From Plumapathes pennacea (taxonomy: Eukaryota > Cnidaria > Anthozoa > Antipatharia > Myriopathidae): a stretch of 64,000 nucleotides of DNA. The stretch is taken from positions 3,527,001-3,591,000 of the forward strand of contig OZ038471.1 in assembly GCA_964036295.1 (NCBI GenBank). Direction: 5' to 3'. Shown one piece after another: positions 94 through 45,995 of this stretch; positions within the stretch are counted from its first letter, which is position 1; every line of letters starts with the position of its first letter. The notes under the pieces were generated by a model. It was not told the origin of the DNA. It was given only the letters and a program-made list of their open reading frames with translations, and searched no databases. A program made the translations under genes and the position numbers.

Positions 94-1289
94 ATTGTCT
101 TGCTGCTAATCTGAGGTGCTGGGAAGCCCTTCAAGTTCTTGAGTCCGAAGGAAGCCACAGGGCTAATGAAGTATTGAAGAAAGCGGAGGTATCCATTAGC
201 AACGTTGCTGAAAAAGATACAGATTTGTTCAGATTAACAAAAGCGAAGTATCTTTTCACTCTTGGGAAAATCCACCGGAAGCTGTATGATGAACCAGAAG
301 GAGCTCTTCAAGAATACGAAAAGTCCCTCGGCTTAATGGATCAATTTCTGCCCGGAGATCACACAGAAAAAGCGAGGTGTCTGAATGCGATAGGGAACTG
401 TTATCAACGCCTTAATAAGCCCGACAAAGCCATTGACTACTTTCAACGTGTGCACGATATGAGAAGGAAATTGTCCGGGGAATTGCATTACGATATGCCA
501 GTGTACAAGAGCCAAATAGGTACAGTGTGCCACCGCAAAGGAGATTATGACCAAGCCATCAAGCACTACCAGAGTGCAATTGAGCTTGAAGAGAAATTGA
601 AGATTTCTGGTTATGAAAGCACGGCTGTGTACTATCGCAACATTGCCAGTGCATATTTGTTCAAGGATGAGTATGCTAAAGCCTTGGAACCAGCCACGAA
701 AGCGTACGAAATCCGGAATGAAATCCTCGGTAAGCATCCAGAGACTACACGAAGCTTGTATCAGTTAGGGTTGATTTGGGATTTTCAAAACAAACTTTCG
801 AAGGCACTCCCGAAGTATAAAGAAGCCTGGGAAATGGAGAAATCTTTACGAAAAGGTAATCACAGTGAAGTGAGGGACGAAATTTTTAAACGTCTCAGGT
901 CACTGTCTCCTGGCGGCTTTTTCCACAGAAAGGAAAAGAAATTGCTTGAAGAAGATGCACTGGAGTTTTATCTCAAACTTTGGGAAGAGGAGAGGTCCTT
1001 TGAAGAGTTCGAACCTTCAGCTTCAAGTGAGAAGATCATGAACATGATAATTGATTTGTACAAGAGCCTGGGAAGCAACAAGGATCCCGAATACGAAAGA
1101 AAGAGGCTCAACTTTTTCCAGGAAGCTTTGGAGGACTATAAAGGGCAATGGAAGGAGCTTGAAAGAGAGAAAGAAAAGGAGTTAGGTGATTCCAAACCTC
1201 ACAGGGAACAAGTGGTAGACAAAATATTACTGTTGGCTTCAAGTCTCAAGGACAAAAAAACAGAAAAAGAATACAAGGATATCAAGAAG
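94..1289 (+). CDS. G1 exon: TPR array
   Basis: The exon opens with a Leu-Arg-Cys-Trp-Glu-Ala-Leu motif shared by all paralogues. About five kinesin-light-chain-type TPR units follow (ARCLNAIGNCYQ, PVYKSQIGTV, VYYRNIASAYLF, TRSLYQLGLIW signatures). Two looser helical repeats with an F/Y-Y-x3-W core come after them, against about five in G3 and G4. The donor gtatgt at 1290 is in phase 0. Confidence 0.85.
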
Positions 1290-1495
1290 GTATGTACGAA
1301 ACACACGTACGCAACTCTCTCTTTTCACCATCATCTGCAATTATATCTTGTTGGAGAGTTAAAGCTGCGAAGTATAACTCATATATCGCAAGGCAATAAT
1401 CTTTTTTGTTCCTTCGTAGATATTGAAAAAGGGGAAATATGTTGCAAGAAGAAGAGAATCTCTTAGGGAACCTGAAGGTAATAAAAGGACAATAG

Positions 1496-1557
<62 letters not shown>

Positions 1558-4500
1558 GTTTACTATTATTTTTAGTTATATTATTTTATGTAGACTTGCA
1601 CGAATACTTGGGATAACCTTCCCGATAATTGCAAGGATGCACAATGAAAGTATTGTGCTAGCCAAAGCAATTTTGAAGGGATAAAAAATGCTGATTTTAA
1701 CGATTAATATGTACAGCGGCCAAACACTGCTTCTCTCTATTACAGGTGCGTTAGTGAAGACAGAGGAAATGGAAGAAGAGGAAGTTAAACTTAGAGAAGA
1801 GGCGAGGAATGTAGAGGACGATTGGGAGGACGCGAAAGAAGAGGAACATACAGCGGCTTTCAGTGATGAAGATGATGACTATGAACAGATCTCTGAAACG
1901 TAAAGCAATTCAGTTGTTTATAGTTGTATATTGCGTCTAGTCTTGTTACTTATACACAAAGAATATTTTATAGTCACATGCAATTCTTTTAATTTTTAAT
2001 GCGTGGCACTCCATATCAATGAAGAGACATTTAGTCGTCTTTAAATTATAATACCGCAACCTCGAAGGAGATTACTAAGAAACCTTCAGGCCAATAAAAT
2101 GGCCGTGAAAATGAATTAATATAAAACTGTCTTGTGCATAGAATGTGGCGTGAGAATATAACATCGTGGTAAACAAGTTATTAATAATATATTAATGATA
2201 ATGTAAGTTAATAAGTATTTATTTTTTTATGTAGGGTCAAAGTCAGTTCACAAGGTTCAGTGTGTGACTTCAAAAGTGCAGGAGTGCACATCACATTTCC
2301 TCCTGGTGCTGTCACCAAGCCACTTCACGTGACCTGTTCCGTGGTCAACCCTGACACCTGTAAACTCCCAACGGCTGAGACTGAAGTGCTGGTGAGCAAT
2401 GTTGTTGAACTGTCACCTCTCGATCTGACGTTTTCCAAGGACGTGACCTTGGCCTTGTCGTACAGTGCCACGAAGCTGCGTGATTATGAAGTTATTGTCA
2501 AAGAGTTGAATAACAAAGAAAGCAACACGTGGAAAGAACTCCACACAGTGGACACAAAAAAAGACACTGGTAATGATGTTTGTGTTCTGTGCTTTATGTA
2601 AATTCACTGGTTTGCTGTGCATGCGGTGGACGGACTAATTCCTGTGAGGCTAACTATCTTTGGTCTGCGTTACCGTATTACTATATTGTCACGCAAGGTT
2701 AATACGAGCGGAATAAAGCATAGTAGTCATGGGACCTCAGCGGAAGGGGCCACGACAAATGGTGTTGGCACTGGCATTAGCCTTATGGCTGTTTATTGGA
2801 ATTTTTCCAAAAATTATTTTGTTGCAGATGAAGGTCATCAAGAGGCGGCTGCGCAACCACCAACAATTAAGACAACGATACGTCGTGCAGGAATCTTTGC
2901 GGTGATCTGCCGACTCGCTTCACACAGTTTTAGCGTAACGGCCAAAGGTTACAAATTTTCTCATCCCAAGTTTTCCAGCCTGAAGGTCGATATTCCTGCT
3001 GGTGCTGTTTCAGGAGAAAGCCAGATTAAAGTCAACGTCAAGGTTGGTCTTTTCGTTGGGGTAAACCTCAGGATGTTGTAACAGTACGATTGTTTCCGTT
3101 CTACATACAGTTTCCGTAGGCAGATACCATTGGGACGAAAAAAAAAAGTGTCTGTAACGTGAAACTGTCCGTGTAAATACAGAGTCTGACTTAGCTAGAG
3201 TTTAGACGGGGTTTCGTAGAGGCTTCTGGAAGTAGAGATGTCCGCTTACGAAAGTGTCCGCCCAGAAAGTTTCGACTGTAACTGACTCTCGTGATATTGC
3301 TAAATGTTATTTTCCCAGGAGAAAAAGGAGGATAAGGCTTCCCAATGAGGTTGAACATCAGATTAATTTTGAGCTGCTGATACATATGGTTCACATGCAA
3401 TTCAATTGTTATGACTAAGGAGATAGACATTTAAACTTTAGACTGAAGTTACATAATTATTGTCATAATCGCCATTTTTCCCTCGATGTCAACGTTGTCG
3501 GGTCGAGTCGTTGTTGTAGTTGTCGTCGTCATCAGAGAATTTGCTATTTGGACAATAGACAGGTAGGAAGTGTGAGGAAACGTCATCATCACTTCCTTGT
3601 TTGTGTGAGAATATCTCAATCGGGTTTTCTTTTGTTTCCGAAGAATGCTGCCGAACTTGTTATAATTGGAAAAGCATAAAAAAGTAGCAAACCTAAAACC
3701 AAGTAACAACAGAATTATTTTTGACAGTGGTACTCGTACACCGCCGCTCATCTTGGTACAGTCAGCACCATCGCTGTCTTCTATAATGAAAGTAACAAAC
3801 CAATTTTACCCGAGCACAAATAGTGCGCGAAGCGCTCGTTCGTAAAATATCGTTTTTACCACTTGAAAATAAAATTCATATCTTCGCGCCGCCGTGTAAT
3901 ATCCTCTATATATTCAATGGCTGCTTTATTCTTATTTTCCGTCTCAGGTGCAAGAGATTCCTGCAGAAGACTTAAATAGTCCTCATGGTTATGCCTGCGC
4001 AGTCCTCCATCTTCACACTTCCACGGACGTTTCCGAGTTCCTAAAGCCGGTGATGATGTCGATTCCTGTGACACTGGGAGACAAGCACATCATTCAGAAG
4101 TCCTCCTGGCAAGCAAGAGTTTTCTTTTGTAGATCAAGAGGTAGCGTTGAAGACTGGGAAGACGTAACCGATAGATTGGATGAGGCACCAACTCTAAATA
4201 ATGGCGTGGTTAGGTTCCAAGTATACCACTTCTCTGCGTAAGTATTGTTACAGATGGCTATTGGTTGTCTATCCGTTTAGAATATTTCCTTCTCCTTTTT
4301 GTGAACTTCTGCCTGCATGCCTGGTTTACGTCGTTCTTTCGGCTTCGGCGTCCCTTGTTTTGTGTCCTTCATTCTTTCATACCTTTTCCTATTATTCTAT
4401 AAACCGGGGTAAACATTCTTAAACTTCCCGTTTTATCCTTCAGATCACTTTTCAATACCAATCAGGCTGGAAAACGTTCACTCTTTTGTTAATTTCGTTG

Positions 4501-5250
4501 CTCCGGAGTGGTTCACTTGTAAAATAAGTATTAAAGCAGCAGCATCGCTTACTACTAAACAGACTTGATTCCCTCTCTTAGGTATTGTCCAGTTTGGGTT
4601 ACAAAAGTGAAAGACGAGGCTTCTGAATTTATAAGGAAGTTAGGTCGATTCATAAAGAGAGGGCCTTCTTTCCCAGCCATGTGCCGCGTTTGTATACGGA
4701 AAAATCAGCTACGGGACGAATTGGGCTCCATCGTCAAATTACATCTGTTCTGCATGCCCATTGGAATTAAGAACGAGCAATGGGAGATCTACGAAATGCT
4801 TGATGAAGATGTCTCCAGACAAGACCTAAGGCCTGAAGAAGAGGTTTACGTTACGCTTGAGAGTGGAGAACTAACCCCTGTTAAAGACATGGAAGACTTC
4901 TGTCTTGTGTGAGCATTCAGCTATGATGGTTGTGTTGATTGAAGCTGTATTCATTTTAATGTAGCGTTGTTGTTGATGTTGATTATAGATTAAGTTATGC
5001 TACTCTAAGTTTTGCTTTCTCGATTGTCTAATCAATTATGAAGTACGTAGTATATTTTTATTTTGTTTTTTAAATAGCCTGACCATGACTCTACTTATGA
5101 TTTTGTTTTTACGATTTTGGCAAAAAATCTATTTGAGCAGAAGCGTGAAGTATCATCAGGATCCTCCAAACAAGTTGGAAATCAAACTATCTTCACGCAG
5201 CTATATTAGCATATATCATATTAAGTATTATATAACAAAATCATAAGTAG

Positions 5251-5299
<49 letters not shown>

Positions 5300-6908
5300 G
5301 CATTATAGATTTATATACAAGTTTCTAGTTTTATTTCCTTCATTTCAGATTCAAAATATGTGGTTTTAAGAAAGGCCTTTCCGCTCGTATAATTGCTGAT
5401 CAGTACAGAAATAGCTCGCAATACAAAGAAGCTTGGTTTTACTTTTACAAGGATCGTTCCAGAACAAAACTCCTCTGCGACTTTTCAGTAAAAGTCTCGC
5501 TTCCAGGACAACACATGACGGTCAGTATTTTCATTCATATATTCTTACATAATGATGATAATGATAATGATAATAATATTAATATTAATATTAATATCTC
5601 GCGGGGCTCCCGTAAAATACGGGGAGCCTTTCTACCTATATGCTCAAAAATACGACTCAGTGGTCTATTTTTTATTGCTATCGGTGAACATTGCAGAAAG
5701 GAAGGCAAACTAGGTTTAGGCATTGCTGCAGTAATTATAATGTCCAATGTTGTGAAAACAAGAAAGGATTTGCGGAATGGTGATGACATTTTTAGCCACT
5801 CTTGTGGGCAGCCAACGGAGGCGTCTATTAAGCTTATCAAGGCACTTCAGTGTCTAATGTAATCTGACTGTATATTTCTTTATGAACAGATGAGGCATGA
5901 ATTACTGCTCAAAGAGTAACACGCACATCGTCATTTTTCTCTTCCTTTGTCCAGGAAGACCAGCGAGGAAAACAAGAGAGGGGGGAACAAATACAAACCT
6001 CAAGCAGGATTTTGCCACTTTCAGAAGACAAGGAAAAAGTACACTACCCTGAGCCAGACAGCAACCAAGAAAAGTGCACAAGTGGCAGATGGCGGAACGC
6101 CGTACTCGCTATTGATAGCCCTTACCACGTCAAACCCGCTATTGCGTATATCCGTGCAGATAGTGGTTCTCAAGGTACTGGATTCAGAATCTCGAAACGA
6201 CTCGTCATGAGTAGTAGACATGTTCTGAAAGACTGTAGGAGTGGGGGTCATGTTATTTTCAATTACTCTGAACCCTTGCCACCAAACGTACCTGGTAAGC
6301 CCGTGCAGAGCAAACGGGCGTCTGAACTTCAGTTGGATACGTTTTACTATGAAAACGCAAAATTGGATTTTGCAGTGATGGGAATGAGCAAGCCTGAAGG
6401 GGAACCGGGCGATTCAAGTGATGTTGCAATAATATCCCATGTCATAGAAAGAAAAAAGGATCTGGTCGGTGCTAGCGTTAACATATTAAGCCACCCTCAT
6501 AGTCGGCCAATGATGGTCTCCACGCACCATAACGAAGCGGTCGCGTATCCCACTGATAAGAAATTTGTGGGAGAGAGCCTACCCTCAAAAGAACACATCA
6601 TAGTGCACAAGGCCGATACCGAAAAAGGATCTTCAGGTGCTCCAATGTTTAATGACTCTTGGCGACTTGTGGGAATTCATCAAGGATTCTTGAGTGAAGA
6701 CCTGGGTGATGGCAAGCCGAAGTTTTTTGCTAATTATGGAACTCATATTACTAAAATCTTAGAGGATATGTTTTCTCAGCGTGACAGAGGACTTACAAAA
6801 TTTGAGACACAGCTGAAAGGACGAGTAGACGAGCTGGGACTGCCATTTGAAGGCTCCAATTACACCAAACATTTCAGGGACCAGTTAAGAGCAGACAAGG
6901 ACAAATAA
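94..6908 (+). CDS. G1: TPR / ZU5-ZU5 / UPA receptor with C-terminal trypsin-like protease (5' partial)
   Basis: This is the 3' part of a large receptor gene; the NB-ARC exon expected from the paralogues lies upstream of the window. Exons: 94-1289, 1420-1477, 1746-1899, 2235-2569, 2828-3042, 3948-4237, 4582-4908, 5349-5520, 5955-6908. The phases join without a stop, giving 1232 residues in the window. The order is TPR array, basic hinge, acidic spacer, ZU5-1, ZU5-2 ending in His-Phe-Ser, UPA, then a trypsin-like serine protease in place of the Death domain of the paralogues. By analogy with PIDD1 and NLRP1 it would cut itself at HF|S and keep or release a UPA-protease fragment (inference). The first acceptor is an unusual AAG (91-93) after a T-run. 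Domain calls rest on reading motifs, not on a profile search. Confidence 0.8.
1420..1477 (+). CDS. G1 exon: short hinge
   Basis: A 58-bp exon matching the 61-bp hinge exon of G3 and G4 (a lysine-glycine-lysine/glutamate-tyrosine-valine-alanine core ending in Arg-Glu-Pro-Glu). It lies between ccttcgtag and gtaata. It was identified from the paralogues because it has no long frame of its own. Confidence 0.65.
1495..1556. repeat. (TTA)n microsatellite
   Basis: About 20 uninterrupted TTA units in a G1 intron. Confidence 0.95.
1746..1899 (+). CDS. G1 exon: acidic spacer
   Basis: About 51 residues, mostly Glu and Asp, ending in a DEDDDYEQ stretch. It occupies the place of the 12-residue glutamate-rich minisatellite of G3/G4 but is not repetitive. 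Acceptor tacag, donor gtaaag (phase 2) as in the paralogues. Confidence 0.75.
2235..2569 (+). CDS. G1 exon: ZU5-1 domain, main part
   Basis: It contains the ZU5 hallmarks: a PPGAV turn, then a VVELSP segment and a hydrophobic Val-Thr-Leu-Ala-Leu-Ser-Tyr strand. Length 335 bp, identical to G2. Donor gtaatg, phase 1. Confidence 0.85.
2828..3042 (+). CDS. G1 exon: end of ZU5-1 and start of ZU5-2
   Basis: The first half carries the last strands of ZU5-1 (an RRAGIFAVICRL segment). This is where PIDD1 has its first HFS site; here there is none. The second half starts ZU5-2 with a D-I-P-A-G-A-V turn. Confidence 0.75.
3826..3921. repeat. half of a palindromic MITE
   Basis: This stretch matches the right half of the 15786-15922 palindrome and its flank (cgaagcgctcgttcgtaaaa ... 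cgccgtgtaat ... cctctatatatt). Only one arm is present. It ends just upstream of the splice acceptor of the HFS exon. Confidence 0.8.
3948..4237 (+). CDS. G1 exon: ZU5-2 domain ending in HFS self-cleavage motif
   Basis: It continues ZU5-2 (FLKPVMMSIPV strand, W-x-D-V-T-D-R-L segment) and ends with His-Phe-Ser (codons 4227-4235) two bases before the donor. HFS at this position is the autoproteolysis site of PIDD1; cutting would fall between Phe and Ser. Confidence 0.8.
4582..4908 (+). CDS. G1 exon: UPA domain, first part
   Basis: It directly follows the HFS exon. It contains a beta-rich region with a V-K-L-H-L-F-C strand, a D-L-R-P-E-E turn and the MEDFCLV end conserved in all paralogues. The UPA assignment rests on position after ZU5 and on this pattern. 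Confidence 0.7.
5254..5296. repeat. (TA)n microsatellite
   Basis: About 21 TA units in the intron between the two UPA exons of G1. Confidence 0.95.
5349..5520 (+). CDS. G1 exon: UPA domain, last part
   Basis: Aligns with the matching exons of G2 to G4 through an F-Y-F/K-L-L-C-D-F-S-V core. It ends in phase 0 at gtcagt. Confidence 0.7.
5955..6908 (+). CDS. G1 exon: trypsin-like serine protease effector
   Basis: About 317 residues to a TAA stop. A polar linker is followed by a chymotrypsin/HtrA-fold protease. A GSQGTGF oxyanion-side strand precedes the candidate catalytic His in SSRHVLKD (codon at 6219). The candidate Asp is in KLDFAVM (codon at 6366) and the nucleophile Ser is in EKGSSGAPMF (codon at 6633). 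All three residues are intact and in the right order and spacing. There is no signal peptide, so the enzyme should act in the cytosol. The other three genes have Death domains here. Confidence 0.85.
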   Translation, partial: EDQRGKQERGEQIQTSSRILPLSEDKEKVHYPEPDSNQEKCTSGRWRNAVLAIDSPYHVKPAIAYIRADSGSQGTGFRISKRLVMSSRHVLKDCRSGGHVIFNYSEPLPPNVPGKPVQSKRASELQLDTFYYENAKLDFAVMGMSKPEGEPGDSSDVAIISHVIERKKDLVGASVNILSHPHSRPMMVSTHHNEAVAYPTDKKFVGESLPSKEHIIVHKADTEKGSSGAPMFNDSWRLVGIHQGFLSEDLGDGKPKFFANYGTHITKILEDMFSQRDRGLTKFETQLKGRVDELGLPFEGSNYTKHFRDQLRADKDK

Positions 6909-7710: not shown

Positions 7711-9346
7711 ATGATGGCGTCCCTTGAGATTCGTCCGGAGCTCGACGAACTTTTACGAGACGTCGCCGGCAGTTTCACACCAGACAGTCTAAAACAAGTC
7801 ATTCAGTCGACGAAGGAAACCCTTGGCGGCAAATTTAAGAGTCTCCCTGATGATGACTTGTACCCGTTGTTACGCCGTCTCCGACAAGAAGGCCATATCA
7901 CAGATGACAATGTTACCATGCTGGACAAGGTTTTCGCATCGCAAACAAGTAAACAAGAAGCTATGGTAAAGAAAGTCAAAAAGTACAAAGGTTTGGGTTT
8001 CCACAAGAAGGAGCCTGTGGCAGAGGCCACCAGTAGAACAGAAGAAATCTCAGAAATCTTGCGAAGACTCAGCGCGGACGAAATCCACATGGTGAATGTG
8101 TACGGCTCGGGAGGTGTTGGCAAGACGACTGTAGCAAAGCAGATTCACTCTCAGTGGCAAGGGAAGCACTTTATGGTGGATCTAAGAGAAGTCACGAGCA
8201 TGGAGGTGTTGCACTTTAAAGTTTTGCAAATCTTCGAGCCATCGACAACAACCATTTCGTATGAGGCCAAGCCTGTAATGGATCGAATTCAACAGGTTGT
8301 TAAAGATACTAAAGATCCTGTGCTTCTAATCCTGGATAACGTGGAGCAGTTCATCACGGAGAAAAACGACCTAAAGAAGCATTTTGTGGGGTTTCTGCGC
8401 CGTCTTTCAGAAATCGAAAGACTCAAAGTTTTGTTGACTTCCAGGTGTGAAGTTGGTGACACTAAAGTCGTGAATGACTATTGTCTCGAGCCACTTCAAA
8501 GCGACAGTTCCCAAGAGCTGCTGCAGTCCATGGCCGAGGTGCATCTTGATGTGGATAAGAGAGAGAGGCTGGTGAAGCATTGCAGAGGTAAACCTCTATT
8601 TTTGAAAGGCATGGCATCTGTGCTGAGGCAAGAAATAGAGAAGGCTGAAGATCTGCTGAGCAAGATTGAGAAAGAAGCAGGGGAGAAACCTGAAAAAAGC
8701 ACAAAGCCAGAAGGACAAGAACCAGCTCAAGCACAAGAAGAAAGCAAGGAAGAAATAGAGCCAGAAGACCTAATTGTCCTCAAAGAAATGTTTTTAAAGA
8801 TTTCTTCCCATGAGTTGAAAGATGCAGCACTAGCTATCTCCCTATTTCGCCTGCCATTTACTGCCAGTTCAGCTGCAGCAGTTCTTGATGTGCCCATTGA
8901 GAAAGCATTTCTTCTCCTTGAGAGCCTCAGAAATAATGGGATCATCAATGTCAGTGATCCAGATGCAAAGGAACTGTTGTACGACATTCATCCTTTGATG
9001 CTATCTTTTGTCAGCAGCATAAAAAACGAGCCTGAATTCAAAGAGAAGTATGGAGCAGCAGAAAATATATTCTGCACGATTTTCATTAAGAAGATGACCA
9101 ATTTATCTTCAATGCTGGATGCTGACTACCTTGGTGCACACAAGCAATTCCAAGCTGAGAGAGCCAATTTTGAGCTGGTTTTGGACATATCATTGAGGGA
9201 GAGCAACTATGTTCATCAACTGCTTTCAACAGAGTATCAGGAGAATGCCATGCTGTACTTCCTGTTTGAAGCAATGCTCACTAGTCCTAATGCAAAAAAA
9301 AAAATTTTCCGCAGTTGGGCAGAGAGTGCCGAAGTAGATCATAAAG
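7711..9346 (+). CDS. G2 exon 1: death-fold N-terminus and NB-ARC ATPase
   Basis: Residues 1-95 form a helical segment with an LLRRLRQEGHITDDN pattern typical of death effector domains. NB-ARC follows: P-loop GSGGVGKTT (132-140), Walker B VLLILDN (204-210, Asp-Asn rather than Asp-Asp), LLTSR sensor strand (241-245), GKP motif (293-295), a Glu/Pro-rich loop (310-350), a winged-helix region and an IHPL motif (426-429) in place of plant MHD. Donor gtaaaa, phase 1. Confidence 0.9.
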
Positions 9347-18194: not shown

Positions 18195-18206
18195 CCAAGA
18201 TGGCGG
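18195..18206 (+). promoter_or_regulatory. YY1-like CAAGATGGCGGC over the G3 start codon
   Basis: The start codon sits inside CAAGATGGCGGC, which matches the YY1 consensus often found at animal translation starts and is also a strong Kozak context. The same 12-mer covers the G4 start. Confidence 0.45.
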
Positions 18207-19886
18207 CTGATGTGGCTGTGAGGCCTGCATGGCTTTCTCTGGAACAAGACAAACTCTTCAGGGTCGTAGATGAAAACTTTACTCAAGTAGGGAAGCAAAA
18301 GGTCTTCGGAGATTCAAACAAGATCCTAGGTAATGCTCCCCGAGACAGTATGTATGAGTGGTTGGTTCTGTTACACAAACAAGGACAGATCACGAATAGC
18401 AACATTGTTGTGATAAAAGACTACCTTGTGGAGCATTCATCTAACAAAGAGAAAATCGAGACAGCCGTTAAAGAGTACACGGAAAAGCTCCCAGAAGAAA
18501 GACCAGATTTAACTGGAAGAGAGGAAGAAATTGGGAAAATCATCGCTAAGCTACGAACCGACGAAAGTGCCATAGTCAACTTGTATGGAGTGAGTGGTGT
18601 TGGAAAGACGACTCTCGCGAAGGAGATCTGCTATCGCTGGGACAAGAATTCGCTGGGAAGATCGCTTACAGTAGATTTGAGAGAAGTAAAAGAAATGAAG
18701 TTTGTCTATTTCAACATTTTGCAAGCTCTCGAACCCAAGAAGACCACTCCGATCTACGAGGAGGAAGCGGTGTTTAAGCGTGTTCGACAACTGAAGAAGG
18801 AGGGTGAACCTGTCCTTGTTTTGTTTGATAACAGCGAGCAGTTTGCAGGTGGTAACACCGAGGAGAGTAAGAGATTACGTGCGGATTTTCTGGGTTTTAT
18901 GAAGCGGCTGAAAAGCTCAAAAAATGACCAGTTCAAGAAGCTCAGGATCCTGTTGACTTCCAGAAAGGAGTTCACTGCTGCGGAACTCATGGAAGATTTC
19001 TGCCTGAAACCTCTGGAGAAAGAACAGTCAGGGGAACTGCTGAAGTCTGAAGGAGAACCACATATTGCTGAAGAACAGAAAACCAAGGTGTTGCAACTAT
19101 GTGGAGGGAGGCCCCTGTTACTCAAGACTGTGGCTGCTGCAGTGAAGCAAGAAGGAGTGAAACTCAAATACTTGATTAGTAAGGTAGAAGAGGGGATTGC
19201 TAGAGTCACAGGTAAACCAGTGGAAACAGTGAAGCCATCAGGAGCAGAAAAACCAGAAGTTAAAGAGAGTGAGCCAGAAAGAACCACAAGAACAGAGCCG
19301 GAAGTTGATGTACAAGATTCCTCATTTCTGGGATCAATGTTTTTCAATCTTCCAAGCAAAGACCTCCAGGATGCAGCTGTCTCATTGTCACTGTTTTGCA
19401 GTCCATTTTCCTTGAAGGCAGCAGCTTGTGTTCTTAATGTTGGTGAGGATAAAGCTAGTCTTATCCTGGAAAGCCTGAGGAGCTACAACTTCATCGTAAC
19501 TGCAGATTCCGATGCAAGGGACATGGCTTATGACATTCATCCTCTGCTCAAGGCAGTTTTGAAAGGCATGAGGAAAGATGAAGATTTCAAGCAAGTTTTT
19601 CAGAATGCTGAAACTCGGTTTTCGCATCTTTTCATGGACTGGGCTTCTCGTCTGGGCAAAGCACTTGACAAGCAATATGTTGATATCCACCGGATTTTCA
19701 ATGCACAACAGGCCAACTTTGAGCTTGCCCTTGATATTACCACAAAGAGGGACTACCTTTTCATTCCTGAAACACAGTACCATGATGTGGCAATGACTGC
19801 TTTCCTTTTCGATGCCATGCTTGATTTGGAAATGAGAATGAAGCTTTACAGATCTTGGGCAGACACTGCAGAAAAAGAAGGAAAAG
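18200..19886 (+). CDS. G3 exon 1: DED-like N-terminus and NB-ARC ATPase
   Basis: Residues 1-95 are helical with a WLVLLHKQGQITNSN death-effector-like pattern. P-loop GVSGVGKTT (130-138), Walker B PVLVLFDN (204-211), LLTSR (251-255), GGRP (302-305), an acidic loop (330-375) and IHPL (446-449). About 93-95 percent identical to G4 exon 1 by eye. Confidence 0.9.
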
Positions 19887-35342: not shown

Positions 35343-37035
35343 ATGGCGGCTGATGTGGCTGTGAGGCCTGCATGGCTTTCTCTGGAACAAGACAAACTCT
35401 TCAGGGTCGTAGATGAAAACTTTACTCAAGTAGAGAAGCAAAAGGTCTTCGGAGATTCAAGCAAGATCCTAGGTAATGCTCCCCGAGACAGTATGTATGA
35501 GTGGTTGGTTCTGTTACACAAACAAGGACAGATCACGAATAGCAACATTGTTGTGATAAAAGACTACCTTGCGGAGCAGTCATCTAACAAAGAGAAAATC
35601 GAGACAGCCGTTAAAGAGTACATGGAAAAGCTCCCAGAAGAAAGACCAGATTTAACTGGAAGAGAGGAAGAAATTGGGAAAATCATCACTAAGCTACGAA
35701 CCGACGAAAGTGCTATAGTCAACTTGTATGGAGTGAGTGGTGTTGGAAAGACGACTCTCGCGAAGGAGATCTGCTATCGCTGGGACAAGAACTCGCTGGG
35801 AAGATCGCTTACAGTAGATTTGAGAGAAGTAAAAGAGATGAAGTTTGTCTATTTCAACATTCTGCAAGCTCTTCAACCCGACCAGACCACCCTGAAGTAC
35901 GAGGAGGAAGCGGTGTTCAAGCGTGTTCGACAACTGGAGAAGGAGGGCAAACCTGTCCTTGTTTTGTTTGATAACAGCGAGCAGTTTGTAGGTGGTAAAG
36001 ACAAGGAGAGTAAGAAATTACGTGCGGACTTTTTGAGTTTTCTTGAGCGGCTAAAAGGCCCAACAGTTGACAAGTTCAAGAAGCTTAGGATCCTGTTGAC
36101 TTCCAGAAAGCAGTTCACTGCTGCGGAACTCATAGAAGATTTCTGCCTGAAACCTCTGGAGAAAGAGCAGTCAGGGGAACTGCTGAAGTCTGAAGGAGAA
36201 CCACACATCGCTGAAGAACAGAAAACCAAGGTGTTGCAACTGTGTGGAGGAAGACCCCTGTTACTCAAGACTGTGGCTGCTGCAGTGAAGCAAGAAGGAG
36301 TGAAACTCAAATACTTGATCAGTAAGGTAGAAGAGGGAATTGCAAGAGTTACAGTAAAACCAGTGGAAACAATGAAGCCATCAGGAGCAGAAAAACCAGA
36401 AGCCAAAGAAAGTGAGCCAGAAAGAGCCACAAGAACAGAGACGGAAGTTGATGTACAAGATTCCTCATTTCTGAGACCAATGTTTTTCAATCTCCCAAGC
36501 AAATATCTCCAGGATGCAGCTGTCTCATTGTCACTGTTTTGCATTCCATTTTCCTTGAAGGCAGCAGCTGGTGTTATTGATGTTGATATGGATGAAGCCA
36601 GTTTCATCCTGGAAAGCCTGAGGAGCTACAACCTTATCATTACTGTAGGTGGAGATGTGAAGCCTGGTGCATTGACTTATGACATTCATCCTCTGCTCAA
36701 GGCAGTTTTGAAAGGCATGAGGAAAGATGAAGATTTCAAGCAAGTTTTTCAGAATGCTGAAACTCGGTTTTCGCATCTTTTCATGGACTGGGCTTCTCGT
36801 CTGGGCAAAGCATTTGACGAACAATATGTTGATGTCTACCGGATGTTCAATGCACAACAGGCCAACTTTGAGCTTGCCCTTGATATCACCACAAAGAGGG
36901 ACTACCTTTTCATTCCTGAAACACAGTACCATGATGTGGCAATGACTGCTTTCCTTTTCGATGCCATGCTTGATTTGGAAATGAGAATGAAGCTTTACAG
37001 ATCTTGGGCAGACACCGCAGAAAAAGAAGGAAAAG
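35343..37035 (+). CDS. G4 exon 1: DED-like N-terminus and NB-ARC ATPase
   Basis: P-loop GVSGVGKTT, Walker B PVLVLFDN, LLTSR, GGRP and IHPL motifs at the same places as in G3. Start in the same CAAGATGGCGGC context. Phase 1 donor gtagga. Confidence 0.9.
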
Positions 37036-40000
37036 GTAGGAATATACAGTACTGTACTTACATTTTAAGAACATAATATGTACATAGTCAAGAAGGCCTA
37101 AATTTGTATATAATGTGATCCAAAGGAAATTGTCTTCTAAGTATTGAATATTATTTATTGGAGGCTTAATAATACACATACAGTAAATATTAGATTGATA
37201 TACCAGGGATGTTGTGAAGCACTAGCTGAGAAACAGTACATTGTATGCTGCTGGCTGAAATTTGGCCAGTGATTGCCCCAGAGCAGAATACCTTCTAGTG
37301 ATGTGTACTGTACTTAAGCTGACTGAGCTCAATTCTAGACCTGCATGCATATTTTTGAAGCTGCAGCACATCTCTGATATACCACACAGTACTGTATATA
37401 TAAGAAACAAGCATGTTCAATGTACAGTGGAATAAAGCCACAGAAATGTAATACTGTTTACTACACAGTATATGTAAGAATAAAAATTAATATTACTGTG
37501 TGATGGTATGCTGAAGATAATTGGCTAAAATGGCATGCTATATCATCCTTGTGATATCCCTACCCTATTCTCATGCTCTACAACTTTCTGCTTGTTTGCA
37601 TGTAGATGAGGCTAATATATAACATAGCAACAGGTTATATATTATAATTCTTTAAATATCCTATTAATCAGGGCTTATAAATATATATTGTTTCTCACTT
37701 CTAGACAAAGTCTAGCAGCTACCACAACTGTAACATAATAAGTGTGATAACCTGACTTCAGGGAACTCTAGTCCTGAACTTAAGACTTAGACTAAGCCTG
37801 TAATTGTACAATACATGTATGCACTCTACAGTCACTCAAAGAAAACCATGCAGTACCTTTCTTGATTAGCATTTAGAGTTACATCTGTACTCTAAATTAC
37901 AACATTCTAACCATTTGCCATTCTACATGTATTTATTCTCTTTCCATTTACAAAAAATGGCTAATTTCTGGACTGTGCAACCGTACAACCTTTCTACATT
38001 AATTGCACATACTGTATAGGTCTAACCTCCTACAATTTGTTTGTGTTTAGACTGCCTTGCTGCTGACCTAAGATGCTGGGAAACCCTGCAAGTCCTTGAT
38101 ATTGAAGGCAGCCACAAAGCTCATGAAGTCCTGAAGAAAGCAAAGACCTCCCTTGACAAAGCTGACAAAGAAGACACTGGGATGACAGAAGAAGACATCG
38201 AGATGCTCAGACTAACAGAGGCAAAGTATCATTTTGCACTGGGGAAAGTCTACCAAAACTTGTACCAAGAGCCAAAGCGAGCTCTTGAAGAATTCCTCAA
38301 GTCCCTTGCTATTATGGAGAAACATTTGGGAGACCACACAGAAACGGCAAGATGTCTAAATGCAATTGGAAACTGCTATCAACGTCTCAACGAGCCACAT
38401 AGAGCCATTGAATACTTCAGGCGTGCATACGATATGAGAGAAAGGTTGTCCGGGGAAGAGCATTTGGACATGCCAGTATACAAGAGTCAAATTGGTGCTG
38501 TGTTTGATCGCCAGGGAGATTATGACCAAGCCATTCAGTATTACCAGAGTGCACTTGAGCTTGAAGAGAAATTGAAGATTTCTGGTTATGAAAGCACGGC
38601 CATGTACCATCGTAACATTGCCAACGCATATTTGTCCAAGAATGAGCATGCTAAAGCCTTGGAACCAGCCACGAAAGCATACGAAATTCGGAATGAGATA
38701 TTTGGAAACCATCCAGAGACTACGAGAAGTCTGTTTCAGCTGGGATTGGTTTGGAATTTACAAAACAAAGGGGATAAAGCACTCCGCCACTACAAAGAAG
38801 CCTGGGAAATGGAGAAATCTCTTGAGATAGGCCGTCACAGTGTAGTAAGGGACAGAATTGTTGGAGATCTCCGGGATTTGTATGATGAACTTCGTCGCAG
38901 AAAGGAGAAGAAAGAAATTGAGAAGAAATTGTTTGAAGAAGATGCACTCGAGTTTTATTGTAGAATCTGGAAAGAGGAGAAGTCGTTTGAACAGTTTCAA
39001 TTTTCGACTCCAAACCGGACGGTCATAAACATGATTATTGAGTTGCTCAAGAGTCTGGGCGGCCGCAAGGCAGAGATGAAGAGTTATCAGGAAGAAGCTC
39101 TTGGCCTGTATGAGAAGACATGGGAGGAGAGAGACACACTACCGGAGCTCAAGTGGGACAAGACGAGCCCAGTAGAGAAGAGCGTGGTCAGAGCGAGAGG
39201 TGAGATCCTGGAGAAGATGAAAGAACTAGCTGAAGGTCTCCGTGATAAAAGCAAAGCCAAACAATTTGAAGTGGAGAAACTGAACTTCTACAGGGAAGTG
39301 TATTTTGCTGAAGGGTCAGTGGACATCGATGAGTACAAGCGGCCAAAGTTGTTTAAAACTATTATTGGCAAACTCAGCAAATTACGCCAGAAAGAATTTG
39401 CTGAAGAGGCTCTGAGCTTCCATTACAGGCAATGGGTCAAGCTTGGAAATCAAAAGGAAGAGAATTATGGTCCTTCTATAGACAACGCCATTAGTGCTCT
39501 TTTAAATATCTGCAGCAAGTTTGGCTCAAAGCAGAGGCTGTCAGAATATCAAAGAGAAGCACTGGCCTTTTACAAGGAACTGTGGACTGAAAAAGCAAGT
39601 GAGATGGACGAGTCTCGCAGGGAGAAAGTTGTACAGACCATCATGAAATTGGCTTCAAATTTGAAGGACAAAGCAACGGAAAAAGAGTACAACAAGATCA
39701 AGAAGGTAAAGACTGTTGTGTTACTTATTTACACAACAACCTTCATGTTGATCTACGTTTAGTACGTACATTTACGTCCTACATGTTTTGGTGGTTTCCA
39801 ATCCCTTGGAGTCACTTGCAGTACAACAGTTCAACTAACATGGCCGCTATGACGTCACTCGAAACGAAGAAAAAAAAAGTCCCGTGACAAGTCCCCGCAA
39901 CACGCGGGATGCACCTTACAATACGTCTACACACAGCAATTTACTGACGTGGTGCCCCCCCCCCCCCCCCCCCAAAAAAAGGAAAACCTTGTACTTGTAT

Positions 40001-43000
40001 TTACACGTTCACGTATCCTTTCATCCGCCAATTAGGCCAATTGTCTTGCGCTTGTCATTCCGTTAAAGTGGAGCACTGTGGAACAAAGAAGAAATGAGCA
40101 ATTTTTGTCGTTCTGTTTGCAGATGTTACAGAAGGGAGAATATGTTGCTGCAGAGAAAGAGGAACCATCGAGAGAAGTTGAAGGTAATATCAGGAGGACT
40201 ACTCTTCTTTCCCGTTATAATAATTAAAAGGGAAAAAAAGGTGTCTTGGGGTTTAATTAAACGATACCCGTTCTGAAGAAGATGTATATGCACAATAGCT
40301 TATAGCGTGCTCATTTTCAGTACCAGAGGCGTCAGCAGGGGCAGAGACAGACGTGGAGGGGGAAGTTGAAATTGGAGAAGAGGTGCAAGAAGAAGGAGAA
40401 CAAGAGTATCAAGAGGTGGTACAACCAGCAGTAGAACAAGAGATTCAAGAGGTGGTACAACCAGTAGTAGAACAAGAGATTCAAGAGGTGGTACAACCAG
40501 CCGGGGAACAAGAGTTTGCAGAGTTGGTACAACCAGCCGGGGAACAAGAGCTTGCAGAGTTGGTACAACCAGCAGTAGAACAGGAGGTTGAAGAGGTGGT
40601 CCAACCAGCTGTAGAGCAAGAGCTTGCAGAGGTGGTACAACCAGCTGGAGAACAGGAGGTTGAAGAGCTGGTACAACCAGCTGGAGAACAGGAGGTTGAA
40701 GAGGTGGTACAACCAGCAGTAGAACAGGAGGTTGAAGAGGTGGTACAACCAGCTGGAGAACAGGAGGTTGAAGAGGTGGTACAACCAGCAGTAGAACAGG
40801 AGGTTGAAGAGGTGGTCCAACCAGCCGGAGAACAACAGATTCAACCAGGAGAAGAACAAGAGCTTGAGGAGATGGTTCATCCAGAAGGAGGACAGGAGCT
40901 TGAATTGGTGGAGGAAGTTGACGAGGAAAACTTCGAGGGTCCAAGCGATTATGAAGATAATTATGAAGAGAAAACGTAAGGCAACAATTCGTTCCGTCCT
41001 TGTCGTAGTCGTAGTAGTTACTGGAGTTTTAAGATATTTCTAACTTACTCGATTACAGAACACTCATACAGCTTACAAAGCAGACGATTGTTCTTCCCGT
41101 AAAACTTAGCATGCATTTTCCTGATTTTACTTTTGCAGAGTCTCGCCCCAAGGTTCAGATTGTGTCTTCGAGAAAGCTGCCGTGCGTGTCACATTTCTTC
41201 CGAATGCTGTCACTGAAATCAAGTCTGTAAAATGCACTGCGCTGAATCCTGATGACTGTAGACCTCCAACAGCCGAGACTGAAGTTCTGGTGAGCAATGT
41301 CGTTGAACTGTCGCCTCTCGATCTGACGTTTTTCGAGGATGTGACCTTGGTCTTGTCGTACAGTGCCACGAAGCTGCGTGATTATGAAGTTGTTGTCAAA
41401 GAGTTGAAGGAGAAAGAGAGCAACACGTGGGAGGAACTCCACACAGTGGACACAAAAGAAGACACTGGTAATGATGTTTGTATTGTGTTGTCCTTTCACT
41501 TGGTCATGTTTGTCTGTCCAAATTAAACTCACATAGCAGCACTAGCTATCATTGTAGAATGTGCTTTATCGATAGCTTGCATATAAGTGGTGAATCCGTT
41601 CACTCCCAAGAATGATCAACTTCGATTTTCTCCTTCAGTTTCTCACCAGAAACATATGATACAATAGGGAGAACTTGGCTTTTGATAGTTTGCTGAGATG
41701 AAAGCTGATTAAGCTATCAATTCTCACTGCATTACTCATACATTTCCTTTTTAAATGGTTGGGAGAATCTGCATTTTGAGCTTGGGAGTGAAAGGGTTAA
41801 ATATTTGGGTTTGATTTTACAGTTGACTGGAGGTGAAAAGTTCTTGAAATGTTGAATTTTTTTTGGTGTATTTGCCATTTGATCTTTTCTTGAGTCTTGG
41901 CGTCACATCTGGAATATCCATTCCAAGTGTTTTACGGTTCATGTCTGAGAAAGCTTCCATCTCCTGAACTGTCGAAGGAAACCTGAAGGTGTGACCATCC
42001 AAGTGAAAGCCATTGTGCACATTTTGATGGCAGTGTTCGCGATGCAGTTGGGCGAAGTTCTGCTTTCGGTCCTCAACTTTCAAAATATAAAACGGAGAAG
42101 CATACAGTAACTGCGCGCGCAGACCTTTGACATTCCCAGTGCCTTGTAAAAGTCAGTTTGTTAGCTGCTGGCGTTGGTTTTGTCCCCTTAATATTTTGTT
42201 TACTGCACATTCAGGTAGTTCAACACAGCTAGAGGCAGGTGCAACATTACCGACCATCAAGGTCACAATACGTCACGCAGGGACCTTTGCAGCGATCTGC
42301 CGTCTCGCTTCGTGCAGTTTTGACGTGTCGGCTGAAGCTGTGGTCTTTCCTCACCCCAAGTTTCCCAGCCTGAAGGTTGAGATCCCAGCCGGTGCTATTC
42401 CTTCAGAAAAGCGCTTTAAAGTTCACATGAAGGTCAGTCTTGTGCTTATTTCTACGTTTCTCTTTGTATTGTTGCATTTTGCAAGATCCTAATCTCACCC
42501 GGAAGATTACAGTCGAGTTTATTCCACCCCAGGGCTGATCAGTCTGAAGTTTCTCTTATCTTGTGACGCCACACGGTTGCCCACGTTACAACCTTTGACG
42601 TCACGAGATTCAAGATGGCGGCGCGCGGGAAATTCAAAGAAGCTTTGTGGCCAAGAAAGTTGGTCCATAAATAGCAATACGGTGTACAATTTAAGGATAT
42701 AACCTCAGGACTTAGAAAAAGTTTAAACAAGGGTAACATTTCATCAGGTACAAGAGATCTCAGCCGACGACGTGAACACTTCTGAAGGCCATGCCTGCCC
42801 TGCCATCCATCTTGATGCCTCCGAGAACGTGACGTTCCTAAAGCCAGTTGTGCTGTCGATTCCTGTGACTTTGGGAGACAGTCATACCCTTCGAATCCCG
42901 CCCTGTCGAATTAGAGTTCTATTTTGTGGATCAGGAGGGGCTCTTGAGGACTGGAAAGACATAACAGACACTTTGGACGAGAAACCCACTTTGGAGGATA

Positions 43001-45995
43001 ATGTGATTCATTTTAAAGTAAATCACTTTTCAGGGTGAGTATTTGCGGTATTTTAAGTTATAATAGCTCTCTCTCTATCGACTCCGTCGGTCTTTCAGAC
43101 TATTAGTCACACCTGCGACTAATGTAAGGGGCGCGAGAAGCCTCTGGTGGAAGCAGTAGAAAATGTACTTTACAGTAGAAAATGTTCGTTACTCGTTACT
43201 TTTAACTCACACTTGTAAAACCGTTTTGGATTGGATTCACATAACACGATTCGACCAATCCTGTCTAAGAACCTGGTGTCGTATTCATTAAACTTTTGAA
43301 CGACAATATTCTTAAGTTTAACTTACACACAATATCACACGAAATTCCATATTCACCAAAGGTAAAGTTTGTAAATTGCGTTTTTATCTTTACGCAAGCT
43401 CTTGACTGCTACTGATTTTCCACGTTCGTATGAACAGTCCAGGGCTTTTTGCAGCAGTATATTGTACGCAAGCCATACGAACATCAGTTATAAACTCTCT
43501 TCCGACATTTGTAACAATTTTCATTCGTACATACCTTCTTTTGTGGAGAGAAATTTGATACTGTACTCCTGAAAATTTGTAGTCTGCTCCAAATCCTTCT
43601 AACGAGACTTGCTCATTAACTTGAACAAACGTTTCCTTCCACCAGGTTTGGGATAATGTTGGGTTGGGGTAGCACAGCTGCACTTGGTGTTTGGGAATAT
43701 GCGGCGTCCTTGTTCAAGCCACCGCCTTTGCCGGTTCTGTTCCGTGCGTGTGAGCGAATAAGCAATCCGCGAGTTGGCTCCACGACGCAGCTGATTCTTA
43801 TCTGTCTACCTGCTCACAAGCGCAACGAAAAAAATGAAGAGTACAAGACTCTTAGCCAGGGTGACTCTGATGAAGACCTAAGACCTCAAGATAGGTCTTA
43901 TGTGCAACTTGATAAAATGGGAGGCTTAAAAGCTGCTCAAAACATGGAAGACTTCTGCCTTGTGTAAGAGTTTATCTGAAAGAGTTCGGGTTTGGTCAAT
44001 GCGCTGCTTGTAAAACGCCATTTTCTCCAGGTTTTATGTGTTCTGTTAGGAGCAGTTCCAGCTACATTTTCAGGAGAAATTGGATTAAGAAACACATTGA
44101 TTAGTGCTGAAGGGGGGAAGGGATGATATACCAACTTTTTTTTCAACATTGTTTGAATTCAATACAGTATAGAAGAGAGTTATATTTTGCCTTCCAGTAA
44201 CACTCTGGCCATTTTTGTTCTCATTTTTGTTCTTCTGTTATATATTTCAGCTTCAAGGAAACGAATCCTTTTGAGAAAACTCTTGACGTTCGTGTCGTTG
44301 AGTGCAGAATGACTTTGCTTTCCTTCTATGGCGATCCAGCTAGAAATAAAAAGCTCTGCGAATTTTCGGTTGTACTTATGCCTCCAGAACTATCAGGGAC
44401 AAACAAGGTAGGTGGAGCTTGAGGAGAGGGACACCTTTTTGTTCATATAAACACAGGGACAACTCGTATTACGCAAATTTATCTCGTCAAAATCAAAATC
44501 ACAGTATAATCGAATATCTTAGAGTGCAGAATGAATAATTGGACATTCATCCCTCGGTCCGCGGAGATTGCTAAATGCCCTGGTCTCCGAAGCTTAAGGG
44601 ACAAATCTGACCCGGTTCACACGGGGCAACGCTTTTCATATAAACGTTGCTCGGGGACAACGTTTGTTCTTTATAAATGAAGCCTTAAAGGGACCCTCTC
44701 AGCCTTTTCAATGTTTTTGTTTACATCTGGAAAATGCAAGGCTGAATTCAAACGAAAAATAGGTTAGTAGAATAAATTAGTTTTCAAAAGAAACTAATTT
44801 TCTCCCCAAACGAGTCTGATGGAAGTGGATTGCTATTCAGTTTCCTTTTTTCTTTATATCTTCTTCAGCGCGCAGTTGAATTTTTTGGAGTTCTGATCGA
44901 AGGCACCCTGTCTGACTCACCTGTTGAGATTATTGACGTTTGTTTGGGGACTCTGGAGGACAAAGATCTTGTCGAACAGGCTCGGGAATGCCGCCTTTCC
45001 AGTGGAAGTTTTGATACACAGAAGTTTTACGAATTGTTGGCGAGTTGTGAAGAAACCAAGCAGGACGCTTGTTTGAACCATATTCTGAAAAGATTGGAAA
45101 CGATAAGTGGAAAAAAGGGAGTGGAACACGTCAAGGAGGCTCTCCAAAAAGGTAACACTATTGTTTGTGAAATGGCGTAAATAAATCATTTTGGAGGGAA
45201 AAGAAACAAATGAATCTAACAATTGATAATGTGGCTAAATGCAATTTAGGCAATGTTAATGTCGAGACTTGCTGATCACGGGTGAACAGCCCCGTCCCCC
45301 CCGTCAGAGGGCTTCTGGGCCGAGTTTTCGCCCCTGCATTGCTTGACTTTTGCTCAACCTTGGCGGGTCGATTTTGTTTGCTCGATCACAGCAGATCAAT
45401 TATGTTTGCCCGATTGTAGCTGATAGATTCTGCCATGGATACCCCCTTCCACCCTAATGCCAACCGCATCTCAAACGTTGAATGTAGGCCATTGAATGTA
45501 TTTGATTACTGAAAACAAGTTTAATGACATCTCGATTAAGAATATTTTGAATACGGTATACTAATGCATTATTTAACCAAACATTTATAGTTATGACAGG
45601 AAATAAAGGGTGTGAGAGTTGTCTTTGTTCTGATATTTTAAAATTTATATCTATATAATTGGCTTGGAGATTCGAATTTTTTCTACTCGTGTTTATATAT
45701 CTCATTCATTCGCCCCGCTCACTCCAATCACTTTTGCTTCTCAGGACGCGACAAGGTCCACAGGAAGGTCGATGAAGATGTCGTGAAACTTGTTTCTAAT
45801 AACGAGGAAGCTGTCAAATACTGGAAACTTCTGGCAAGGAAACTAGAAGTCTCGGATAATGAGTGTTGTTACCAGTCTCTGCGAAAGTGGACGCAAGAAA
45901 AAGCTTCAGACGCAACAATCAGGAAGCTGTTAAGAGCGCTAACTCAAGTAGGACTTCGACCAGTCGTTCTCGAGATTTGTAGAAAAGTTTCCTAG
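35343..45995 (+). CDS. G4: DED-like / NB-ARC / TPR / Glu-rich / ZU5-ZU5 / UPA / X / shortened Death domain
   Basis: Eleven exons: 35343-37035, 38051-39705, 40123-40183, 40321-40975, 41139-41467, 42215-42432, 42748-43034, 43646-43963, 44251-44407, 44869-45151, 45745-45995. The joined frame is 1968 residues plus TAG. It is the duplicate of the first part of G3 (start-to-start distance 17,143 bp), including long intron stretches. It differs from G3 in a shorter spacer, a divergent C-terminal half, and loss of 13 residues from the core of the Death domain. It ends in a stop where G3 reads on. Role as for G2 by architecture; whether its Death domain still folds is open. Confidence 0.85.
38051..39705 (+). 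CDS. G4 exon 2: TPR array plus YxxxW repeats
   Basis: Same repeat order as G3 with a 5-residue Lys/Glu insertion near 38910. Phase 0 donor gtaaag. Confidence 0.85.
39955..39973. repeat. poly(C) tract
   Basis: 19 C in the intron before the hinge exon of G4; G3 has a C/T-interrupted version at 22861-22892. Confidence 0.9.
40123..40183 (+). CDS. G4 exon 3: hinge
   Basis: 61 bp, MLQKGEYVAAEKEEPSREVE, phase 1. Confidence 0.8.
40321..40975 (+). CDS. G4 exon 4: glutamate-rich 12-residue repeat spacer
   Basis: 218 residues, about 12 copies of the 12-residue unit without the 96-residue higher-order structure seen in G3. Same ends as the G3 exon. Confidence 0.85.
41139..41467 (+). CDS. G4 exon 5: ZU5-1
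   Basis: RVTFLPNAV turn, VVELSP strand, phase 1 donor gtaatg. Confidence 0.85.
41588..41800. mobile_element. MITE with ttaaccctttcactccc ends, G4 copy
   Basis: Same insertion as 25438-25646. The right end gggagtgaaagggttaa is intact; the left end is mutated. Confidence 0.8.
42215..42432 (+). CDS. G4 exon 6: ZU5-1 end / ZU5-2 start
   Basis: HAGTFAAICRL, VEIPAGA turn. Nearly identical to 26099-26316. Confidence 0.8.
42596..42632 (+). promoter_or_regulatory. intronic CRE / YY1 / E2F-like cluster, G4 copy
   Basis: TGACGTCA, CAAGATGGCGGC and GCGCGCGGGAAA in the same order and spacing as 26481-26517. Confidence 0.35.
42748..43034 (+). CDS. G4 exon 7: ZU5-2 with HFS
   Basis: Ends His-Phe-Ser (43024-43032). 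Confidence 0.85.
43646..43963 (+). CDS. G4 exon 8: UPA first part
   Basis: DLRPQD turn, MEDFCLV end. Confidence 0.7.
44251..44407 (+). CDS. G4 exon 9: UPA last part
   Basis: LSFYGDPARNKKLCEFSV core. One codon longer than in G3. Confidence 0.75.
44869..45151 (+). CDS. G4 exon 10: uncharacterised helical domain (X)
   Basis: Same length as G3 exon 10 but only a little over half identical by eye; FYELLASCEETKQDACL and KEALQKG are kept. Confidence 0.75.
45745..45995 (+). CDS. G4 exon 11: Death domain, 13 residues deleted
   Basis: YWKLLARKLEVSDNECCYQS: compared with G3 the 39 bp coding for the helix 2-3 region are gone without a frame change. The second half (SLRKWTQE, IRKLLRALTQVG) is intact. 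Ends in TAG. Confidence 0.8.

Follow-up and report, generated by a model that had tools for sequence, protein, structure and literature searches.

In PIDD, CARD8 and NLRP1, the chain cuts itself at a short motif, which is HF/S in PIDD and SF/S in CARD8 and NLRP1, through a chemistry in which the nucleophile can be serine, threonine or cysteine, the phenylalanine is important and the first residue is tolerant, and the cut halves of PIDD and CARD8 stay together (passages of PMC3210808). In NLRP1 and CARD8, the C-terminal portion is kept in check by the N-terminal one (passages of PMC11760013). Passages of other papers place ZU5 among the domains found with NACHT in cnidarians (PMC8260672), mention NACHT-Zu5 (PMC12909245), report FIIND and UPA-ZU5 fused to TRADD-N with autoproteolysis predicted (PMC8195603) and name TPR as the domain that usually accompanies NB-ARC in corals (PMC10236652). 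Here we analyse a stretch of 64,000 nucleotides from the antipatharian Plumapathes pennacea (the window; C10:3527001-3591000, in a genome of 290 Mb and 24 contigs) whose genes, judged from sequence, probably encode related cnidarian STAND receptors, arranged in tandem, with a PIDD1/NLRP1-like self-cleaving module.

Between positions 94 and 45995, the plus strand of the window holds four genes, G1 to G4, each combining NB-ARC, TPR, an acidic linker, ZU5-ZU5, a UPA-like domain and a C-terminal effector, in models whose exons we assembled manually, guided by the alignment of paralogues and by splice sites. Every internal junction is GT-AG, the phases agree and no internal stop occurs, which bears out the collinear exons read by an earlier first-pass annotation of this DNA; several splice sites score low on a crude splice matrix (the acceptors at 29219 and 29754, for example). 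The predicted proteins measure 1232 aa (G1, partial in the window), 1555 aa (G2), 2998 aa (G3) and 1968 aa (G4). That annotation had described four neighbouring genes of one architecture, and the four open genes stand, with NB-ARC, TPR, ZU5 and Death profiles matching as it had anticipated, but the ZU5-UPA modules within the window number five and the UPA domain is moderately supported. Its limits for the cluster did not survive, as family members lie beyond the window on both sides, and the effector of G1 is a Trypsin_2 domain. The modules and their predicted cleavage sites are as follows:

G1, 2235-2569, 2828-3042 and 3948-4237, plus strand: first and second ZU5 domains (ZU5-1, ZU5-2); Pfam ZU5 6.3e-17, two stretches
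G1, 4227-4235, plus strand: predicted site HF/S
G1, 4582-4908 and 5349-5520, plus strand: UPA-like domain; moderate UPA support
G2, 11418-11752, 12595-12821 and 13363-13652, plus strand: ZU5-1 and ZU5-2; ZU5 8.5e-18
G2, 13642-13650, plus strand: predicted site HF/S
G2, 14146-14475 and 14723-14888, plus strand: UPA-like domain; moderate UPA support
G3 first module, 24986-25314, 26099-26316, 26651-26937, 27549-27866 and 28154-28307, plus strand: ZU5-1, ZU5-2 and UPA-like domain
G3 first module, 26927-26935, plus strand: predicted site HF/S
G3 second module (M5), 29754-33885, plus strand: acidic exon, ZU5-1, ZU5-2, UPA-like domain and linker
M5, 32123-32131, plus strand: predicted site HF/S
G4, 41139-41467, 42215-42432 and 42748-43034, plus strand: ZU5-1 and ZU5-2; ZU5 6.9e-14
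G4, 43024-43032, plus strand: predicted site HF/S
G4, 43646-43963 and 44251-44407, plus strand: UPA-like domain

Pfam ZU5 matches two stretches in each of the assembled modules of G4, G1 and G2, and the ZU5 domains of the first G3 module are assigned through G4 exons that are 77-98% identical. Together with its Death domain, the module aligns along its whole length to the ZU5-ZU5-UPA-DD tandem of ankyrin-2 (4d8o, 5.9e-24). With segment borders taken from that alignment, hhalign pairs the UPA-like segment with ankyrin UPA over 102 columns at 25% probability when two ankyrins are used and at 65% when an amphioxus relative is added, and its three controls gave 0.08-0.16%.

In all five window modules, the last ZU5 domain closes with HFS, the PIDD cleavage motif and one form of the [H/S]F/S motif that marks PIDD and FIIND, directly ahead of the UPA-like part, so the comparison with PIDD1 and NLRP1 made by the first-pass annotation holds at the level of sequence. 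ZU5-1 ends instead with RHAG, RRAG or RHTG in the same five modules (xFS in 0/5). Four further units, in a gene upstream of the window described below (G0), all read YFS. We also scanned 25 coral proteins for the module; eight had no match and one, P0063, was confident only at model positions 2-81, leaving 16 relatives, in which the ZU5-2 site is HFS in 11 and RFS, QFS, HLS, HFT or AFC in one each, with S, T or C at the nucleophile position in 16/16. Across 25 aligned modules, several of which are near-identical copies or isoforms, the nucleophile position holds S in 23, T in one and C in one, 24 have F, 20 have H and 22 have the F-S pair, and the residues directly flanking the triplet vary; among 403 scored columns, F ranks 29th, S 51st and H 115th. 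Given this conservation and the chemistry described in passages of PMC3210808, self-cleavage of the modules at HF/S before the UPA-like part is a reasonable prediction.

Upstream of the module lies the putative sensor half:

G1, C10:3524476-3526221 (upstream of the window), plus strand: NB-ARC open frame, 62% identical to G4; candidate splice to 94
G1, 94-1289, plus strand: TPR exon, 58-61% identical to the G3 and G4 TPR exons
G1, 1420-1477 and 1746-1899, plus strand: linker and acidic exons, phase-consistent
G2, 7711-9346, plus strand: exon 1, DED-like, putatively helical domain and NB-ARC/ARC; NB-ARC 6.5e-16, DED 7.9e-05 (below cut-off)
G2, 9697-10983, plus strand: TPR exon; TPR_12 1.5e-28
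G3, 18200-19886, plus strand: exon 1, putatively helical N-terminal domain followed by NB-ARC; 89% identity with the G4 frame
G3, 20940-22582, plus strand: TPR exon, 90% identical to the G4 frame
G3, 23258-24818, plus strand: acidic exon with a 36-bp coding repeat in ~37 copies (Tandem Repeats Finder 23332-24671, 37.2 copies)
G4, 35343-37035, plus strand: exon 1, putatively helical N-terminal domain and NB-ARC; NB-ARC 6.7e-14
G4, 38051-39705, plus strand: TPR exon; TPR_12 3.5e-28
G4, 40321-40975, plus strand: acidic exon with the 36-bp repeat in ~12 copies (Tandem Repeats Finder 40394-40835)

The NB-ARC matches are to Pfam, as are those to TPR_12, and the P-loop motif is intact in the NB-ARC exons of all five genes from G0 to G4, placing the proteins among STAND NTPases of the NB-ARC class. 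The predicted fold of the first G4 exon is Apaf-1-like; a second comparison, with VIA-align, covers mainly model residues 99-478 and barely reaches the N-terminal domain. G1 would begin upstream of the window, at the open NB-ARC frame that is a candidate for joining to its TPR exon. For the N-terminal domain we dropped the DED label, keeping 'DED-like' for G2: the Pfam DED profile (PF01335) stayed below its cut-off of 35.9 bits in G2 (23.3 and 19.8) and G1 (18.2) and gave no match in G3 or G4. A tblastn search of plasmids with the first G2 exon returned no match. The 36-bp repeat encodes an acidic unit of 12 residues and recurs in three paralogous exons, at 23332-24671 (~37 copies), 29825-30058 (~6.5) and 40394-40835 (~12).

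The effectors behind the UPA-like domains are:

G1, 5955-6908, plus strand: last exon, trypsin-like serine peptidase with a stop at its end; Trypsin_2 2.3e-14
G2, 16049-16323, plus strand: last exon, Death domain, joined via linker exon 15351-15384; Death 1.1e-09
G3, 28641-28923, plus strand: X domain of ~95 aa, 61% identical to the G4 copy
G3, 29219-29581, plus strand: Death exon that reads on in frame, without a stop, into a copy of linker exon C; Death 1.8e-14
G3, 33966-34228, plus strand: second Death domain (of M5) and stop; Death 9.7e-10
G4, 44869-45151, plus strand: X domain
G4, 45745-45995, plus strand: Death domain and stop; Death 5.9e-10

The Death profile (PF00531) thus matches G2, G3, M5 and G4. 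The X domain begins with the pattern VEFFG, and coral relatives hold forms that are 24-25% identical; its G4 copy had no Pfam match, and the best hit of an X profile against the PDB had an E-value of 0.14.

We infer cleavage, association, release, trigger, downstream targets, expression and an immune or death-signalling function for these receptors, and picture their working by analogy with PIDD and NLRP1/CARD8. An Apaf-1-like NB-ARC switch and a TPR sensor would be followed by the acidic spacer and then the ZU5-ZU5-UPA module, which would cut itself at HF/S ahead of UPA. Because the halves would remain associated, the sensor half could hold the UPA-effector half in check, and oligomerisation or loss of the sensor half would then free or cluster the latter. 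The part freed from G2, G3 and G4 would offer a Death domain for homotypic recruitment, and that of G1 a trypsin-like protease acting directly.

Two genes appear to carry more than one module. The first Death exon of G3 has no stop, and an open frame (29152-29613) runs from it through the copy of exon C into M5, giving the single 2998-aa frame; M5 is itself a hybrid, with a G3-like front and a G2-like back. We rejected M5 as an independent gene, as it is without NB-ARC and TPR exons and the G3 Death exon enters it in frame. Upstream of the window, G0 (C10:3495581-3521947) comprises 36 exons and 4249 aa, with NB-ARC-TPR followed by four ZU5-ZU5-UPA-X-Death modules, all junctions in phase and a single stop supplied by the final acidic exon. 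Its units 1 and 2 differ at 133/5278 positions, units 2 and 3 at 9/5284 and units 3 and 4 at 207/5183 (a count that includes the diverged end of unit 4), which argues against assembly duplication except for units 2 and 3. To the right of the window, on the minus strand, a diverged family member (L035, C10:3601001-3606000) retains HFS together with UPA-like and X exons. With the G4 copy of the cut-site exon as query, a genome search gave 11 matches, of which ten lie within 3502767-3603820 of C10 and the remaining one on C1.

These frames permit a reading about which we are more doubtful than convinced, namely that G3 with two modules and G0 with four are concatenated self-processing receptors, which would cut themselves into a string of UPA-Death pieces held together non-covalently and free several units per sensing event, and that the same slot also holds two different trypsin-like proteases (in G1 and in a related gene on C1), in which case the released half would itself be an enzyme. 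Were G0 and G3 translated whole, each cut would leave a UPA-X-Death-acidic-ZU5-ZU5 middle piece, held by the previous one and holding the next. A serious competitor, which falls only a little short of an even call, is that neither gene encodes a polyprotein and that transcripts end early or are spliced alternatively, so that each mRNA joins one sensor to one module. Such a choice is what two Acropora digitifera proteins look like, P0006 and P0051, annotated isoforms of LOC107327669 whose first 1199 residues are identical and whose ZU5-UPA modules differ; the pair speaks for several modules sharing one sensor, with one chosen at a time and not all strung in a row, although the difference may also be an annotation artefact. 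Left unspliced at the exon C donor, moreover, each fused Death exon would meet a stop ~30 bases on, and the open frames of G0 units 2 and 3 say little on selection because so few positions separate them. Translation through the modules is favoured, on the other hand, by the open 36-exon frame of G0 with its in-phase junctions and terminal stop, by Death exons in G0 and the first G3 module that reach the exon C donor without a stop, and by the 133 differences between G0 units 1 and 2, whose ZU5 domains have a ratio of nonsynonymous to synonymous substitution (dN/dS) of 0.26.

Several observations weigh against the proposal of self-cleaving receptors, most of them at the module. The UPA identity is the weakest of our domain calls, moderately supported: the UPA-like segment alone matched Pfam in 0/5 members, a UPA-only profile found nothing in the PDB, and a genome search with Pfam UPA_2 returned two matches, both elsewhere and none in the cluster (C10:722267-723052, L001 and L002, ~2.8 Mb away). 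Among the 16 coral relatives, three are without the F-S pair (HLS, HFT, AFC); the 16 include isoforms of one annotated locus and are not independent, and in two of the 16, P0058 and P0069, ZU5-1 ends in xFS (GFS or RFS), a possible second cut site. The amphioxus relative reads EAS at the site and ankyrin-2 has no HFS at the aligned position, and because both share the domain order, that order does not imply cleavage. In the effectors, the predicted model of the G1 protease reached a predicted local distance difference test (pLDDT) score of 29.6 from a two-sequence input, and the G4 Death domain is 13 residues shorter than that of G3. Pairwise NG86 estimates of dN/dS lie between 0.24 and 0.47 in 10 of 14 comparisons, and the other four are 0.66 twice (M5 against G2), 0.73 (the barely diverged ZU5 domains of G3 and G4) and 1.00 (X and Death of G3 and G4). 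Because of these four values and the shortened Death domain, constraint may be weakening in some copies; it seems to act in most comparisons, and less at the effector end of G3 and G4.

An alternative is that the module is a rigid scaffold like that of ankyrin or UNC5, with ZU5-ZU5-UPA folding uncleaved and intact receptors signalling via the Death domain. Ankyrin is indeed the best PDB match, aligned over the whole module and Death domain, the amphioxus relative lacks the motif and the UPA-like part is unrecognised on its own. We nevertheless hold this to be unlikely, as the F-S pair persists in 22 of 25 aligned modules between variable flanking residues and the motif coincides with the published PIDD site (passages of PMC3210808).

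The protease of G1 raises the question of whether its exon belongs to that gene. We assigned its presumed catalytic triad, H89-D138-S227 in exon-product numbering, from known motifs; the three residues are invariant relative to P0002, a Streptomyces protein annotated as an endonuclease that carries Trypsin_2 and Endonuclease_1 and lists no ZU5. P0002 was one of two proteins returned by a homologue search with the G1 query, a search of limited sensitivity that missed coral relatives found with G4. The H and S motifs also align with staphylococcal Spl proteases (best chain 1.1e-05, each stretch weak), NCBIfam gave no family for the G1 protease, and PADLOC gave RT-Protease_XI alone (best 1.7e-07). 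Across the genome the exon has 28 matches including itself, of which 20 became loci (one being G1) and nine had their open reading frames read. The other 19 (L004-L022) lie on C1, C2, C3, C4, C8 and C11, and none had a match to any of our UPA exons at E 0.01 within 1.5 kb. The protease match precedes a Death domain in L013 (7.9e-08) and, in L015, a frame that resembles NACHT (1.5e-05; 25.3 bits, where the cut-off is 26.7). Near L009 and L016, tblastn gave weaker Death-like matches, and near L022 there is a P-loop-like piece with no Pfam match. Judged from these matches, the G1-type protease recurs in the genome, at least sometimes beside receptor-like parts.

A related gene on C1 (C1:37728001-37743600; L042, L036, L029 and L043) retains HFS, and its UPA exon reads straight into a different trypsin-like domain, with the H motif inside the UPA exon and the D and S motifs in a second trypsin exon (Trypsin_2 9.2e-08). 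The UPA exon alone had no Pfam match, and the NB-ARC exon of this gene has a frame break.

We consider it distinctly unlikely that exon 5955-6908 forms a gene of its own or belongs to G2. The 27 other matches elsewhere, with 19 fetched loci free of a UPA match, would suit a domain that stands by itself, but the exon has no in-frame ATG before the domain, a strong acceptor (score 11.2) in phase 0 as at the G4 effector junction, and a stop at its end, and it follows the G1 UPA exon after an intron of 434 bp; in the C1 gene, moreover, a trypsin-like domain starts within the UPA exon itself. As a 5′ exon of G2 it was rejected, given the absent start codon, the stop at its end and a phase that fits G1. 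Most improbable of all is that the cluster consists in large part of non-functional, decaying remnants of tandem duplication, as the hybrid M5, the shortened G4 Death domain, the X and Death dN/dS of 1.0 and the broken C1 copy might suggest, since the frames of G0 to G4 are open with the P-loop motif intact in all five and dN/dS stays at 0.24-0.47 in 10 of 14 comparisons.

If the proposal of self-cleaving receptors is true, cnidarians have the cut-and-release mechanism of ZU5-UPA proteins coupled to an Apaf-1-like STAND receptor, a long way from the NLRP1 and PIDD1 of vertebrates, with an output that can be exchanged between a Death domain and a protease and that apparently occurs in several copies per sensor. 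How cut-and-release sensing arose could then be tested, and studies of coral immunity would have a definite receptor family to work on, for which counting one band or two would be a simple biochemical assay. Elsewhere in the window, a 348-bp tandem array occupies 52740-56973 (~12 copies, 97% matching), and an open frame at 62123-62584, inspected by eye, has a probable membrane helix and, in its tail, several tyrosine motifs, with no Pfam match above cut-off.

The closest relatives are coral proteins, in line with the cnidarian assignment of the first-pass annotation. The first 1110 residues of G4 retrieved five, named uncharacterised, at 32-36% identity (best 5.7e-160), and a profile search returned 441 proteins at 1e-30 or better. 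Among the 120 of these that were listed, 15 carry ZU5, all from Acropora or Montipora, of which 13 have NB-ARC, nine Death and seven both; none of the 120 has Trypsin_2. P0005 (Acropora palmata) and P0003 (Montipora capricornis) follow the same order as G4, from N-terminal domain, NB-ARC, TPR and acidic linker through ZU5-ZU5 and UPA-like to X and Death, with HFS at the site in P0005 and HLS in P0003. The coral proteins, which were annotated separately, show the same exon order, at ~33% identity to the first 1110 residues of G4, and differ in that none of the 16 relatives lists Trypsin_2 and each has one full module, in contrast to the protease of G1 and the several modules of G3 and G0. We found no paper with NB-ARC, TPR, ZU5 and UPA in one protein, in a literature search that lay outside preprints and most subscription papers, and the word ZU5 is absent from the main texts of PMC10236652, PMC4083563, PMC6321704 and PMC11797021. 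The earlier suggestion that this order was undescribed therefore holds for the papers searched but not for coral protein databases, where it sits unannotated: the ingredients and the prediction of autoproteolysis were already known, and we found no description of this order, of proteases as outputs or of multiplied modules.

Among characterised proteins, ankyrin shares the ZU5-ZU5-UPA-DD tandem (4d8o) and differs in having no HFS at the aligned position and no STAND ATPase. A trypsin-like protease as output, as in G1, is known from the bacterial NucA-trypsin and STAND-trypsin conflict systems (passages of PMC8195603), to which G1 is tied by one search of limited sensitivity and by P0002, a protein that lists no ZU5. 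NLRP1 and CARD8 are cut once, immediately ahead of UPA, and carry a death-fold effector beyond the cut, as is predicted for the cluster, and NLRP1 likewise has a STAND ATPase (passages of PMC3210808 and PMC11760013), but their FIIND has one ZU5, SF/S and a CARD where the cluster has two ZU5s, HF/S and Death or protease, and NLRP1 has NACHT and LRRs in place of NB-ARC and TPR. PIDD1 has LRRs where the cluster has NB-ARC and TPR, and passages of PMC3210808 describe PIDD as cut after both ZU5s, whereas the motif of the cluster stands at ZU5-2 only; it is with PIDD1, by the same source, that the cluster, its UPA being UPA-like, shares the order ZU5-ZU5-UPA-DD together with HF/S.

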